Assembly: GCF_001687585.2 (NCBI RefSeq)
Contig: NZ_CP016537.2
Span: forward strand, 158,001 to 222,000
Length of the DNA stretch: 64,000 nt
Direction of reading: 5' to 3'
Source of the DNA: Planococcus halocryophilus
GTDB taxonomy: Bacteria; Bacillota; Bacilli; Bacillales_A; Planococcaceae
The stretch's first letter is position 1. The number at the start of each line of letters is the position of its first letter. The position numbers and the translations under genes were made by a program. Of this stretch, positions 5,077-44,905 are shown piece by piece. Under the pieces are notes generated by a model. That model was given only the letters and a program-made list of their open reading frames with translations, ran no database searches and was not told the DNA's origin.

Positions 5077-6634
<1,558 letters not shown>

Positions 6635-6740
6635 ATAAATTCGGAACCGGGCGCCCTAGGCGCTCCGGGGTTGACGTTTTGCGTTCAGTTTTGAAGGTTC
6701 ACCTTCAGGCGGCAACGCCTTTTTTTGTGACTTTCAAACT

Positions 6741-6752
6741 TGTTCTTTGAAA
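6741..6752 (+). promoter_or_regulatory. boxA-like antitermination element in the 16S-23S spacer
   Basis: TGTTCTTTGAAA resembles the boxA of bacterial rrn operons, which binds NusB/NusE. The spacer (6631-6835) contains no tRNA gene. Confidence 0.6.
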
Positions 6753-6835
6753 ACTGGATAAAACGACATTGAAACAATATGCAAGAAATTCAAGTACGCG
6801 TGACAATTTTTGTCACAACTTTTTAATTAACCATT

Positions 6836-9768
<2,933 letters not shown>

Positions 9769-9843
9769 AAACAAAGTACGCGAAGACTTGCACGTTCCAA
9801 TGTCGTTTATCCAGTTTTGAGTGAACAAGCACTCAACTAAATA

Positions 9844-9960
<117 letters not shown>

Positions 9961-10002
9961 TATTCTATGTTTATTTTTTATTCCTAATGATTCTTTTACC
10001 TT

Positions 10003-10075
10003 GCTTCCATAGCTCAGCAGGTAGAGTGCTTCCATGGTAAGGAAGAGGTCACCGGTTCGAATCCGGTTGGAAGCT
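10003..10075 (+). tRNA. tRNA-Thr (GGT)
   Basis: Cloverleaf with acceptor GCTTCCA/TGGAAGC and anticodon loop ATGGTAA (anticodon GGT, reading ACC/ACT). CCA is not encoded. It is the first of seven tRNA genes cotranscribed behind the rRNAs. Confidence 0.95.
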
Positions 10076-10133
10076 TTTGTTTTTTTACAGAGTTTCTTTA
10101 ATAGGAAATGAAATAAACGATTTTATTATGCAA

Positions 10134-10208
10134 GGCCCCTTGGTCAAGCGGTTAAGACACCGCCCTTTCACGGCGGTAACACGGGTTCGAATCCCGTAGG
10201 GGTCACCA
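10134..10208 (+). tRNA. tRNA-Glu (TTC)
   Basis: Acceptor GGCCCCT/AGGGGTC; anticodon loop CTTTCAC (anticodon TTC); the CCA end is encoded. Confidence 0.96.
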
Positions 10209-10212
10209 TTTT

Positions 10213-10288
10213 GGAGGATTAGCTCAGCTGGGAGAGCATCTGCCTTACAAGCAGAGGGTCGGCGGTTCGATCCCGTCATCCTCCACCA
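10213..10288 (+). tRNA. tRNA-Val (TAC)
   Basis: Acceptor GGAGGAT/ATCCTCC; anticodon loop CTTACAA (anticodon TAC); encoded CCA. Confidence 0.96.
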
Positions 10289-10308
10289 TTTTTTTCATAA
10301 CTTTATAC

Positions 10309-10392
10309 GGTGGGGTAGCGAAGTGGCTAAACGCGGCGGACTGTAAATCCGCTCCTTCGGGTTCGGCAGTTCGAATCTGCCCCCCACCACCA
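10309..10392 (+). tRNA. tRNA-Tyr (GTA)
   Basis: A class II tRNA with a long variable arm (CTCCTTCGGG region). Acceptor GGTGGGG/CCCCACC, anticodon loop CTGTAAA (anticodon GTA), encoded CCA. Confidence 0.96.
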
Positions 10393-10411
10393 GTTTTATT
10401 ATCAGTACCGA

Positions 10412-10486
10412 TGGGGTATAGCCAAGCGGTAAGGCAACGGGTTTTGATCCCGTCATGCCCTGGTTCGAATCCAGGTACCCCAGCCA
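10412..10486 (+). tRNA. tRNA-Gln (TTG)
   Basis: Acceptor TGGGGTA/TACCCCA; anticodon loop TTTTGAT (anticodon TTG); encoded CCA. Confidence 0.96.
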
Positions 10487-10497
10487 TTTTTTATTAT

Positions 10498-10570
10498 GAG
10501 CCATTAGCTCAGCTGGTAGAGCATCTGACTTTTAATCAGAGGGTCGAAGGTTCGAATCCTTCATGGCTCA
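10498..10570 (+). tRNA. tRNA-Lys (TTT)
   Basis: Acceptor GAGCCAT/ATGGCTC; anticodon loop CTTTTAA (anticodon TTT). CCA is not encoded. Confidence 0.96.
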
Positions 10571-10601
10571 TTCTTTTAACATCCTTGCGCCTGTTCAGCG
10601 C

Positions 10602-10674
10602 GGGGCCTTAGCTCAGCTGGGAGAGCGCGTCGCTGGCAGTGACGAGGTCAGGGGTTCGAGCCCCCTAGGCTCCA
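10602..10674 (+). tRNA. tRNA-Ala (GGC)
   Basis: Acceptor GGGGCCT/AGGCTCC; anticodon loop CTGGCAG (anticodon GGC). CCA is not encoded. It is the last tRNA before the shared terminator. Confidence 0.95.
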
Positions 10675-19832: not shown

Positions 19833-19896
19833 AGTAGAGTCGGTTTACGACTACTGAAAAGGAGGATAGAAGTTGAGTGATAGGAAAACAATTATA

Positions 19897-20049
19897 GCGC
19901 CTGTACTAGAGAAATTGGACGGACAAGTCATCTCTAGTAGACGAGGAGAAGGAGTATCGAATTTTCGGCGGATCCCTTCCGGCCATGAAGCCTGGTCGTG
20001 ATGTCCATTCTTAAAACAGTCGAGTGATCGATTGGCCAACAAGATGGAT
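19897..20049 (+). ncRNA. glmS ribozyme (glucosamine-6-phosphate riboswitch)
   Basis: A self-cleaving RNA that uses glucosamine-6-phosphate as cofactor and lowers glmS expression when product is plentiful. Conserved blocks are present: AGCGCC at the cleavage site (predicted between 19896 and 19897), GACGAGG...GGAGTATCGAATTTTCGG, and CGGCGGATCCCTTCCGG. A P4-like stem TCCATTCTT/AAGATGGA encloses the hairpin CAGTCGA/TCGATTG. It lies directly upstream of glmS, as in all known cases. Confidence 0.95.
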
Positions 20050-20094
20050 AGGCTCAAACACTTATTCGAACGAGATAAATGGAGGAATTTAATT

Positions 20095-29701: not shown

Positions 29702-31288
29702 ATGATTATCAATCACAATATCGCAGCATTAAACACACACAGACAGATGGCATCGGCTCAAAGCTCACAAATGGACAGCATGGAGAAATTGTCTTCAGGA
29801 CTTCGCATTAACAGTGCAAAAGATGATGCAGCGGGTCTTACAATTTCTGAAAAAATGCGTGGACAGATTCGCGGATTAGAGCAAGCTTCAACTAACGCTC
29901 AAGACAGCATTTCGTTGATTCAGACTGCAGAAGGTTCTTTGAGTGAAACTCAAGATATTCTTCAACGTATGCGTGAATTAGCTGTACAATCCGGTAACGA
30001 TACTAACACAACAACAGATCGTGGAGAAATTCAAAAAGAGATTGATTCTTTAACTTCTGAGATCAATCGTATTGGTAATACAACTGAGTTCAACACGCAA
30101 AAATTATTGAACGGTTCTAAAGATTCGACAAATCTTGCCGTTGCTGCTGGACAGGTAACTGTAGGTGGAATGACTTTTGATACTACTGGTGGCGCATTGA
30201 ATGGTTATACCTTCGAAATGGGCACAGTAACAGATGGAACCGTTCCTTCAGTTGTTTTGGATGCAGACACTAAAAAAATCACAATTAATGGTGACTTTGA
30301 TGCTACTGCGACAGGATTCACAGCAGCATCAGATATAGAGACGGCATTAAATGCCGAATTGATTACTAAGGGTGTTACACAAACTGTCACAGTTGGTGGA
30401 GCTTCGGCTGCTACGGCTACCGGAGATGCATCAGGAGCAGTAACTGGTGGAGTTGATGCAGGAGCTGGTCTTCAATTCCAAATCGGTGCTAACGAAAACC
30501 AAAGCTTGACGCTTGAGATTACTGATATGCGTGCTAAGAATTTAGGTCTTTCTGGAGCAACTGGTGGTAATTTTGCTTCTACTAATAAAGTATCTGATGG
30601 AACTAATGGCTCTCTAACAGAAGCGGCTCTCGATTTGTCAACGGCTGCAAAATCTGCAAAAGCTATTACAATTATCAATAACGCTATCGAAAAAGTATCT
30701 GGAGAACGTTCTAAGCTGGGAGCAAACCAAAACCGATTAGAACATACAATCAATAACTTGAACACATCTTCTGAAAACCTAACAGCTGCGGAATCAAGAA
30801 TCCGCGACGTTGATTATGCCGAAGCCGCGTAAGCGAGTGGAGGTGCAGTCGTCCTGGCCGGTAACAGCCAGAGATTACGACCGGGTGAATTGCTGGAAAG
30901 CCCTGATAGCTTTTATTGCCACAACGTAGTTGGAAACGACAAGCGTGACGGCCTGAAAAAATAAAAGATTGGGCAATCAGCAGCCAAGCTCCTGTCTCGA
31001 AAGAGTGGAGAAGGTTCAACGACTAGGATAGACCATCTAAGGCGCAAGCTATGGTGATGAAATCCGTAGGTGAGGCAGTATACATCAGTACTGTGGATCC
31101 GAAGTGCCCGGCCCCTACTAATACTAGAGGGTGAAGATATAGTCTAGTCATTTATGAAAGTAAATGTTCGCACGATGGCGAAAGAAATGATGGAACAAAC
31201 AAAGAACTCGATTCTTGCACAAGCATCACAAGCAATGCTGGCTCAGGCCAACCAAGCACCACAGCAAGTACTACAATTGCTACGTTAA
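29702..31288 (+). CDS. hag: Flagellin, split by a group I intron (exons 29702-30817 and 31178-31288)
   Basis: The major filament protein, 408 residues after splicing. Exon 1 (372 codons) encodes the conserved D0/D1 N-terminus (MIINHNIAALNTHRQM, KLSSGLRINSAKDDAAGL), a variable central part (about 140-290) and the start of the C-terminal helix (ENLTAAESRIRDVDY). Exon 2 (36 codons) supplies AKEMMEQTKNSILAQASQAM and the end NQAPQQVLQLLR. The junction RDVDY|AKEMM fits the flagellin family exactly. Without splicing, translation stops at 30830-30832 and loses the C-terminal D0 helix. Control elements are the sigma-D promoter and the CsrA hairpin upstream. Confidence 0.93.
30818..31177 (+). other. 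Group I self-splicing intron in flagellin, 360 bases, no internal ORF
   Basis: P1 is formed by exon TTAT plus intron GC (30814-30819) with GCGTAA (30827-30832), including the required U-G at the 5' splice site. P10 pairs exon-2 GCG (31178-31180) with CGC (30826-30828). Core elements: P, AATTGCTGGAAA; Q, AATCAGCAGCCAAGC; R, GTTCAACGACTAG; S, AAGATATAGTC. P7 is GACTA with TAGTC. A P9 hairpin CATTTA/TAAATG precedes the terminal G at 31177. The core resembles phage-type subgroup IA; the subgroup call is tentative. Confidence 0.92.
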
Positions 31289-31610: not shown

Positions 31611-31691
31611 GCCGGACGCTTTCCGCGGGCACGGCCTCAGCCGGTTACACCGTCTTCACCGCGTGCTGTTCCCGCTGGAGTCGCCGTCTCC
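31611..31691 (+). repeat. Intergenic hairpin repeat, family A copy 3 (degenerate, overlaps endonuclease 3' end)
   Basis: It contains CGGACGCTTTCCGCGGGCAC and GGAGTCGCCGTC. The outer arms match each other poorly, unlike other copies. The last residues of the endonuclease reading frame (GNGDGDSSGNSTR) are read from this repeat. Confidence 0.65.
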
Positions 31692-32572
31692 ATTACCATT
31701 CGCTATATATGTCTTACAATCTGATGGTATAAGGGTGACGCTGTTTTCACGTAACTCTCTCCATTTGTAAACAATAGACCAGTACGTGCGGTTCAAATGA
31801 AGGGCAATTTCTTTATCTGTTTTTCCTTCTTTTTTCATTTGACATAGTATTTCACATTCTTCTTTTGTATAATTTTTTCGCCGATCTGATGAACTCGCAA
31901 TCACTTCGTAGCCGGGATGAGAGTCCTTATAACGTTCTATTTCTTTTTGAAAACGAAAACCCCAATCGGTTTTATGATACATGGACGGGCAGTCTTTTGA
32001 GGCATCACCAACTATCTTTAGGAATTTCATAGTTTCACTCACTTTGGTGGTTTTTAATATATAACCAAATCCATCAGGCCTCTTACTAGTAGTAAATTCG
32101 ACTCCAAAATGAGTGCTTATGTGTAATTTTAATTTGCATAGATCTTCGAAGCGTAAAGACTGCAGGTGTAGGTAAATATGTGGCGTCAAATAAATGGTTT
32201 TCTTTAATTCGTTTCTATTAGCAGAAATGCATAACGAACCATCATCTAAATACAAAGTCGTGAGAAACAAAGGCGATTTACATAACTCAAGCATTTTGGG
32301 AGAGATGATTTTATCTCCATTCGCATTGTAAAAGTGATCAAACATTAATGTTAACAAAGGTAGCGATGGGGAAAGAAGTAAAGAATTAGATTGATTAAAG
32401 TAAAAAGTAGAAGGGAGCAAATTCGATACTCTAATTGTTGGATACTAAAATGTTCTCTATAACTATTATTTTTTCGGCGAGAACCTGGATATCTCTTAGT
32501 GATTTCGCCATCTCCTAAAATACTTGCGATTAAGACATTTTGCTCGTTAGAATTCAGAGAGAACAAATCCAT
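31656..32572 (-). pseudogene. LAGLIDADG-type homing endonuclease, frameshifted
   Basis: The N-terminal part (32572 down to about 32425) reads NSNEQNVLIASILGDGEIT and then HFSIQQLEYR, the first LAGLIDADG helix region. The rest (about 32420 to 31656) continues in another frame with LLPSTFYFN, the second catalytic block LYLDDGSLCIS and a C-terminal helix-turn-helix-like region (YTKEECEILCQMKKEGKTDK). The frames do not join: compared with relatives, the expected xWK segment after EYR is missing, consistent with a deletion of 3n+1 bases near 32420-32428. AGGAGG precedes the ATG at 32572. It lies outside the nearby flagellin intron and on the opposite strand. Confidence 0.85.
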
Positions 32573-44814: not shown

Positions 44815-44905
44815 TCATGGTGAAAATGGCAAACTTATTCGAAAGATAAAGACGCAAAACCACGGGCCTAACTACATAATGTACATGGCAGCCGGGTTAT
44901 CAAAA
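44815..44905 (+). promoter_or_regulatory. Cyclic-di-GMP-I (GEMM-I) riboswitch
   Basis: The aptamer core is recognisable: GGCAAAC (44828-44834), the GAAA tetraloop hairpin TTATTCGAAAGATAA, GACGCAAA...CC..GGGCCTAA, a second hairpin (TACATAATGTA) and GGCAGCCGGGTTATC. This order and these conserved bases define class I c-di-GMP riboswitches. A possible upstream promoter is TTGAAA/TATTAT at 44733-44763. Ends of P1 are approximate. Confidence 0.9.

Follow-up and report, generated by a model that had tools for sequence, protein, structure and literature searches.

A group I intron in the flagellin gene of Planococcus halocryophilus with a conserved in-frame alanine tail, a candidate degron

The flagellin (hag) gene of Planococcus halocryophilus is interrupted by a group I intron, and the reading frame of exon 1 continues into the intron and ends there on a short alanine tail conserved at the peptide level among relatives. 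The best explanation, which we consider quite probable, combines a group I intron in flagellin with a coded Ala-tail degron for the chains made from unspliced mRNA. The gene was studied in a window of 64,000 nucleotides taken from the 3.42 Mb, one-contig genome, and its features are listed in Table 1.

Table 1. Features of the flagellin locus (positions in the window)
Feature	Position	Strand	Basis
Flagellin (hag) exon 1, end ...SRIRDVD	29702..30814	+	ORF; Pfam Flagellin_N plus Flagellin_C up to profile position 54; 5' splice site placed by P1
P1 hairpin, exon GAU 30812-30814 with GUC 30848-30850	30812..30850	+	Predicted fold; covariation
Group I intron, 360 nt	30815..31174	+	RF00028; ends placed by P1, frame and relatives without the intron; P9-to-last-base spacing as in most site-2 introns
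In-frame coded tail YAEAA*, unspliced mRNA, candidate degron	30815..30832	+	Translation; conservation in 134 relatives
J7/9 GU and P9 hairpin, with the terminal intron G (31174) 8 nt past P9	31147..31174	+	Sequence; spacing set against that of site-2 introns
Flagellin exon 2, MAKEMM...VLQLLR and stop	31175..31288	+	Pfam Flagellin_C positions 52-86; relatives without intron
Last 14 codons of exon 2, possible scar of site-2 intron loss	31244..31285	+	Bases as in exon 3 of site-2 relatives
Free-standing LAGLIDADG gene, frame broken (pieces 31656-32420 and 32351-32572)	31656..32572	-	PF03161

The intron and its splice junction

The original prediction had proposed a group I intron in the gap of the flagellin frame, and the covariance model RF00028 confirmed it with 90.6 bits (gathering score 50). 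The match covered 30843-31166 (E 6.9e-22 over the window) and model positions 1-253, the full length, and no other match at E up to 0.001 was obtained in the whole genome. The break was also as predicted: the frame opens at ATG 29702 and stops at 30830-30832, the C-terminal residues return about 345 nt later, and Flagellin_C is divided between the pieces (profile positions 1-54 and 52-86). Since the genome holds a single flagellin gene, and this gene carries the intron, a complete filament would require splicing, in agreement with the original prediction. The other flagellin-like gene (26 percent identity, 299 codons) is probably the hook-filament junction protein. We infer from the sequence that the hag intron is spliced in P. 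halocryophilus.

Other elements were also observed in the window. A c-di-GMP-I riboswitch (44818-44904, plus strand, 73.8 bits), a second RNA element on flagellar genes there, lies just upstream of frames that by eye resemble flgB, flgC, fliE and fliF. In addition, a glmS ribozyme (19885-20059, plus strand, 111.4 bits) and a 16S-23S-5S rRNA operon followed by seven tRNA genes (5078-10674, plus strand) were present.

To place the junction, the 36 flagellin loci of the genus were resolved into 41 gene copies, 24 with the intron at this position (site 1) and 17 without it, some of the latter carrying an intron at a second position (site 2). The copies were sorted by the codon following GAY, which was TAT or ATG in all 41. 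Every copy without the site-1 intron read GAY ATG GCN (17/17; RDVDMA in 14, RDTDMA in 3), and every copy with it had GAT TAT on the 5' side and ATG GCG on the 3' side (24/24). Furthermore, the last exon codon was GAT in 24/24 Planococcus copies with the intron versus 8/17 without (Fisher 7e-5, kinship ignored), an excess that is expected if the exon base-pairs with the intron.

The P1 hairpin was compared in 134 distinct site-1 copies from many genera. A copy was required to have GTCGTCCT, a group I core and an SRI-D-D-like flagellin motif at most 110 nt upstream; the motif was found in 222 of 223 hits, and 134 were left once identical sequences were removed. The tail was no criterion, and the RF00028 searches of 46 genus genomes and 151 Bacilli genomes were run without GTCGTCCT. 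GUC belongs to the selection criterion and its constancy carries no weight, so that the P1 argument rests on the inner pairs and the fold. The outer pair was closed in 133/134 predicted folds. The inner pairs int4, int5 and int6 were kept in 134, 134 and 133 copies, respectively, and they covary: GC, GU or AU at int4, CG, UA, AU or UG at int5, and UA, CG or UG at int6, with some compensatory changes. Past GAU/GUC there followed a U-A pair (133/134), an A-C mismatch (133/134) and then U-A or U-G. In the predicted fold of the window, U30814-G30848 forms the wobble at the 5' splice site, and the stop codon lies within the P1 apical loop.

With the 5' site at 30814|30815, the in-frame 3' site 31174|31175 yields the family protein sequence. 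On P1 covariation and the reading frame, the predicted junction is thus 30814|31175, and the product RDVD|MAKEMM agrees with the intronless copies, which bears out the earlier claim that removal of the intron restores the frame. The terminal intron base is G31174, and G also ended the intron in all 77 site-2 copies for which exon 3 was identified. The spacing from P9 to the intron end was 8 nt in 51/77 site-2 and 82/131 site-1 folds; the others had 1-9 nt, or no hairpin in 9. The P9.0 pairing fitted 58/77 site-2 copies versus 57 and 48 for slid controls, hardly better, and the 3' site was therefore not assigned from it.

The junction originally predicted, 30817|31178 with the product RDVDY|AKEMM, was not borne out, being one codon (3 nt) off at both ends on the comparative evidence, and we regard it as very unlikely. 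It maintains the frame, and the UUAU/GUAA pairs on which its P1 was built are indeed present in the window; J7/9 GU could also pair with the AU ahead of G31177. However, the G of its U-G pair is not conserved, as it is the third base of an alanine codon (T 42, G 37, A 29, C 26 among 134 copies), and the family-wide P1 sets the wobble at U30814. Moreover, it puts Tyr where Met stands in all 17 genus copies without the intron, and it would need 11 nt from P9 to the last G, a distance never found in the site-2 folds. The two junctions predict different spliced RNA sequences, which would be GTTGATATGGCG for 30814|31175 and GTTGATTATGCG for 30817|31178. Other placements were also tried and rejected. 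For 30810|31171, in which the IGS GCGU would pair with exon ACGU, the needed U is C in the intron-carrying copy G002, and combinations giving RDVDY|MAKEMM make the product one residue too long.

The coded alanine tail and its explanation

The exon frame ended within the intron on Ala-stop in 134/134 site-1 copies and on Ala-Ala-stop in 129/134. The tail had five codons in 114 copies and six in 20; the most frequent sequence was YALAA (69), and YAEAA, the form of the window, was found in 19. The last Ala codon was GC in all 134 with any third base, and the stop codon was TAA in 122, TAG in 12 and TGA in none. Changes were counted by parsimony on a tree of the intron body, tail excluded, with 131 of the 134 copies. 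The last Ala codon had changed 0 times at each of its first two bases and 47 times at the third, and the stop codon 0, 0 and 12 times, versus 28 and 29 changes at the first two bases past the stop, which pair with the last Ala GC in the usual fold. At the residue level, there were 0 changes in the last position, 5 in the second-last and 23 in the third-last. No copy had a frame-shifting indel in the tail, and the spacer past the stop, 10-24 nt long, occurred in every phase. As the Ala GC is invariant, its third base free and its pairing partners changing, selection on the tail as a peptide is the simplest reading of these sequences. RNA pairing in the modelled P1 apical stem accounts for part of the conservation of the two Ala codons.

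The tail was also compared with introns found by the RF00028 search of 151 Bacilli genomes, in which 22 matches were above the cut-off. Three more flagellin site-1 introns outside the genus ended in YALAA, HTEAA and YALAA. Five introns were located in ribonucleotide-reductase genes (Pfam), two of them below the Rfam cut-off; their upstream frames stopped close to the intron start and ended in GGSR (3), RGK and TGK. An upstream frame ending in AA was found at none of the 15 non-flagellin loci shown in this search, for most of which the frames are only presumed exons.

In the filament core, the C-terminal and N-terminal helices of flagellin pair with each other. Truncated subunits would be without this C-terminal segment, and their removal would therefore be useful. 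In the proposed mechanism, the intron separates the GAU codon for Asp from the AUG codon for Met in RDVD|MAKEMM. A ribosome would read exon 1 and five intron codons and halt in the P1 loop, which would keep it away from the catalytic core. P1 would then refold, guanosine would attack after U30814, and the exons would be joined at 31175. Chains made before splicing would be without the C-terminal helix and terminate in YAEAA, for which roughly half of the relatives have YALAA. Their Ala end would act as a coded degron akin to the ssrA tag or the RqcH alanine tails, and the truncated subunits would be removed, probably via ClpXP. The order of the ribosome and splicing events, the degradation and the protease are what we infer here.

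Known degrons agree with this in part. In E. coli, whose ssrA tag is AANDENYALAA, the sequence SENYALAA is degraded; ALAA is bound in the pore of ClpX, and by itself, with no linker ahead of it, it was insufficient in vitro but effective in vivo (PMC8512704). In B. subtilis, stalled chains are marked with alanine tails that ClpXP recognises (PMC8957991). The C-terminal Ala-Ala of an ssrA-like degron is present in the window as in the 129 relatives. The full ALAA end was found in 69/134 copies, and the window has AEAA instead; the third-last residue is mostly Glu in Planococcus, which may weaken ClpX binding. By ARAGORN, which was run on 18 of 30 tmRNA loci, the genome's own tmRNA tag is GKTNQNLAFAA, with an AFAA end; 11 other Planococcus loci gave GKTN[QN]NLAFAA, and 6 other Bacilli loci ended in LAA. 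In addition, the genome encodes an NFACT (RqcH-type) protein and a ClpX-zinc-finger protein.

An ordinary ORF-less group I intron without any degron was weighed against the degron reading; the stop codon would then shield the ribozyme core, and GCNGCN-UAA would be kept as an apical P1 hairpin or termination aid. The apical stem does fully pair the last Ala GC in 107/134 predicted folds, and the third-last residue varies, as this explanation would allow. However, the partner bases past the stop have changed many times and the Ala GC never, the lower P1 pairs do exchange, and GC is retained in the 27 copies without full pairing. Furthermore, the tail frame was never shifted while the spacer behind it varies in all phases, and the frames upstream of the reductase introns have no AA end. 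We thus consider the absence of a degron unlikely. An intron that is dead or too rarely spliced, with truncated flagellin and a non-motile cell, would fit the broken endonuclease gene nearby; the core nevertheless scores comparably to the cores of relatives in RF00028, P1 folds in the prediction, and the flagellin C-terminus is preserved in exon 2, which makes this explanation most improbable. The coded degron is accordingly the preferred reading of the tail.

The second intron site and the endonuclease gene

Relatives carry a further group I intron 14 codons ahead of the flagellin end. For this site 2, 79 distinct copies were collected by a QAMLA-like motif and a core, the tail being no criterion, and exon 3 was not found in 2 of them. 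A complete flagellin C-terminus, commonly Q-S-N-Q-M-P-Q-G-V-L-Q-L-L-R-stop, was present inside the intron in 77/79 copies. Non-consensus bases in these 77 numbered 199 at the first, 66 at the second and 372 at the third codon position, and V-L-Q-L-L was almost invariant as protein. With the C-terminus carried by the intron, spliced and unspliced site-2 mRNAs would both code for full-length flagellin. By eye, exon UCU stood with the IGS GGGA in two copies, and nearly all others had GCU with GGGC. Two other placements of the site-2 splice were rejected: after CAAT, which is lost in G002 and G010 (CAAG), and at the stop codon, from which a nonsense frame results. Short tails were observed instead of the carried C-terminus in the site-2 introns of L291 (QLLVA*) and L288 (QFEQVA*); LVA resembles a known ssrA variant.

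Taken with the site-1 tail, the carried C-terminus suggests that the flagellin introns of Bacilli safeguard against their own splicing failure, by a degron at site 1 and a replacement C-terminus at site 2, the choice being set by the amount of protein lost; on balance, we lean towards this generalisation.

Site 2 is empty in the window. Its last 42 coding bases were shared to 41/42 with exon 3 of six site-2 genomes, compared with 38-39 for other site-2 genomes, two with only 29-30, and at most 37/42 for copies without the site-2 intron; the first G041 copy was counted twice in this comparison. A clean loss of the site-2 intron from the window is proposed on this basis with moderate confidence, kinship being uncontrolled. 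Two adjacent flagellin genes, both with the site-1 intron, were observed in L056 and L061, and the second copy of L061 has site 2 too. Site-2 introns with the carried C-terminus were also observed outside Bacilli, in L091 (Fusibacter tunisiensis) and in L173, the latter with weak endonuclease matches, which suggests transfer between classes.

The broken gene downstream of hag codes for a LAGLIDADG endonuclease. Its larger piece matched PF03161 with E 1.3e-7, the smaller piece matched no Pfam family, and the two overlapping frames matched one 309-aa relative. The gene was found in 10/46 genus genomes, the window's included, and 9 of the 10 have the site-2 intron; it was present in 9/16 genomes with site 2 versus 1/30 without (Fisher 9e-5, kinship ignored). 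A similar result was obtained with 128 loci having at least 1.6 kb beyond the last flagellin-like end, with site-2 calls by a script rule that dropped L089, L108 and L127, each with a site-2 intron and an endonuclease. Here the endonuclease was present in 23/60 loci with site 2 versus 1/68 without, namely the window, and in all 24 it lay downstream and antisense. It was present in 1/54 loci with site 1 only (again the window) and in 0/14 intronless loci, and 37/60 site-2 loci had no endonuclease gene within 2.5 kb. The association thus holds for the site-2 intron and not for the window's own site-1 intron. Most likely, the endonuclease promotes the spread of the site-2 intron through collaborative homing, in which a free-standing endonuclease targets the intron insertion site (PMC3984707). 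Viral contigs were scanned for a source of the endonuclease; four stretches fitted the pattern, and none was confirmed as a relative.

Distribution and comparison with known systems

RF00028 introns above the cut-off were found in 27/46 genus genomes, in flagellin in all 27, with site 1 in 22 genomes and site 2 in 16, where the site-2 survey took in the intronless G039 and left out the second G041 copy. A flagellin gene was found in 35/46 genomes (36 matches, one of them weak at 22 percent). Across the order, the IGS-P2 pattern was present in 50/261 genomes. A contig scan for the intron core gave at least 117 stretches, and among the stretches listed the script assigned core matches to site 1 in at least 109 cases and to others, mostly flagellin site 2, in at least 21. 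Judged from these matches, the site-1 intron is widespread in Bacilli. A weak RF00028 match of 24.3 bits was also observed in L068 (G045:C1:386475-386678), about 200 kb away from the flagellin gene.

The peptide-conserved tail, the wide spread in Bacilli, the second site and the broken endonuclease are additions to the original prediction, and the predicted flagellin splice site is corrected. Self-splicing introns are commonly treated as neutral since they remove themselves. If confirmed, our reading would mean that selection acts on the protein made when the intron stays in, one intron encoding the means by which its failed product is discarded, and its sister a working substitute. RNA splicing, ribosome termination and proteolysis would then be joined in one element. 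This could explain the persistence of an intron in a highly expressed bacterial gene, and whether splicing sets flagellar output would become testable. Among the open-access PMC titles and abstracts searched, none dealt with an intron-coded degron or with Planococcus flagellin introns, and neither the coded alanine tail, the carried C-terminus nor the endonuclease partner was reported in the open-access literature searched. The genus Planococcus is not known to be thermophilic.

Flagellin introns have been described before. Hayakawa and Ishizuka (2009, 2012), as related in PMC3984707 and PMC4853749, reported group I introns in the flagellin of Geobacillus stearothermophilus and thermophilic Bacillus. 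Like the intron in our study, these lie in flagellin, and their self-splicing was reported to be temperature-dependent; the accounts in the two papers, compared by description only, are silent on a coded tail, on a second site and on an endonuclease partner. Bacillus recA and nrdE also contain group I introns (PMC3984707), again within protein-coding genes of Bacilli. In the five reductase introns of the present search, a stop lies close to the intron start, as in flagellin, but there is no AA tail. As in the collaborative homing pairs described in that paper, a free-standing LAGLIDADG gene stands beside an ORF-less intron; here, however, the pair is predicted on a bacterial chromosome, the gene is convergent with flagellin, and the window's copy is broken. 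The Ala-Ala C-terminus is common to the ssrA (tmRNA) tag, the RqcH alanine tails and the intron tail, and the YALAA of 69/134 intron tails is identical to the five C-terminal residues of the E. coli tag. In contrast to the ssrA and RqcH tails, which are added to stalled ribosomes, the intron tail is coded in the genome and reached through normal termination.
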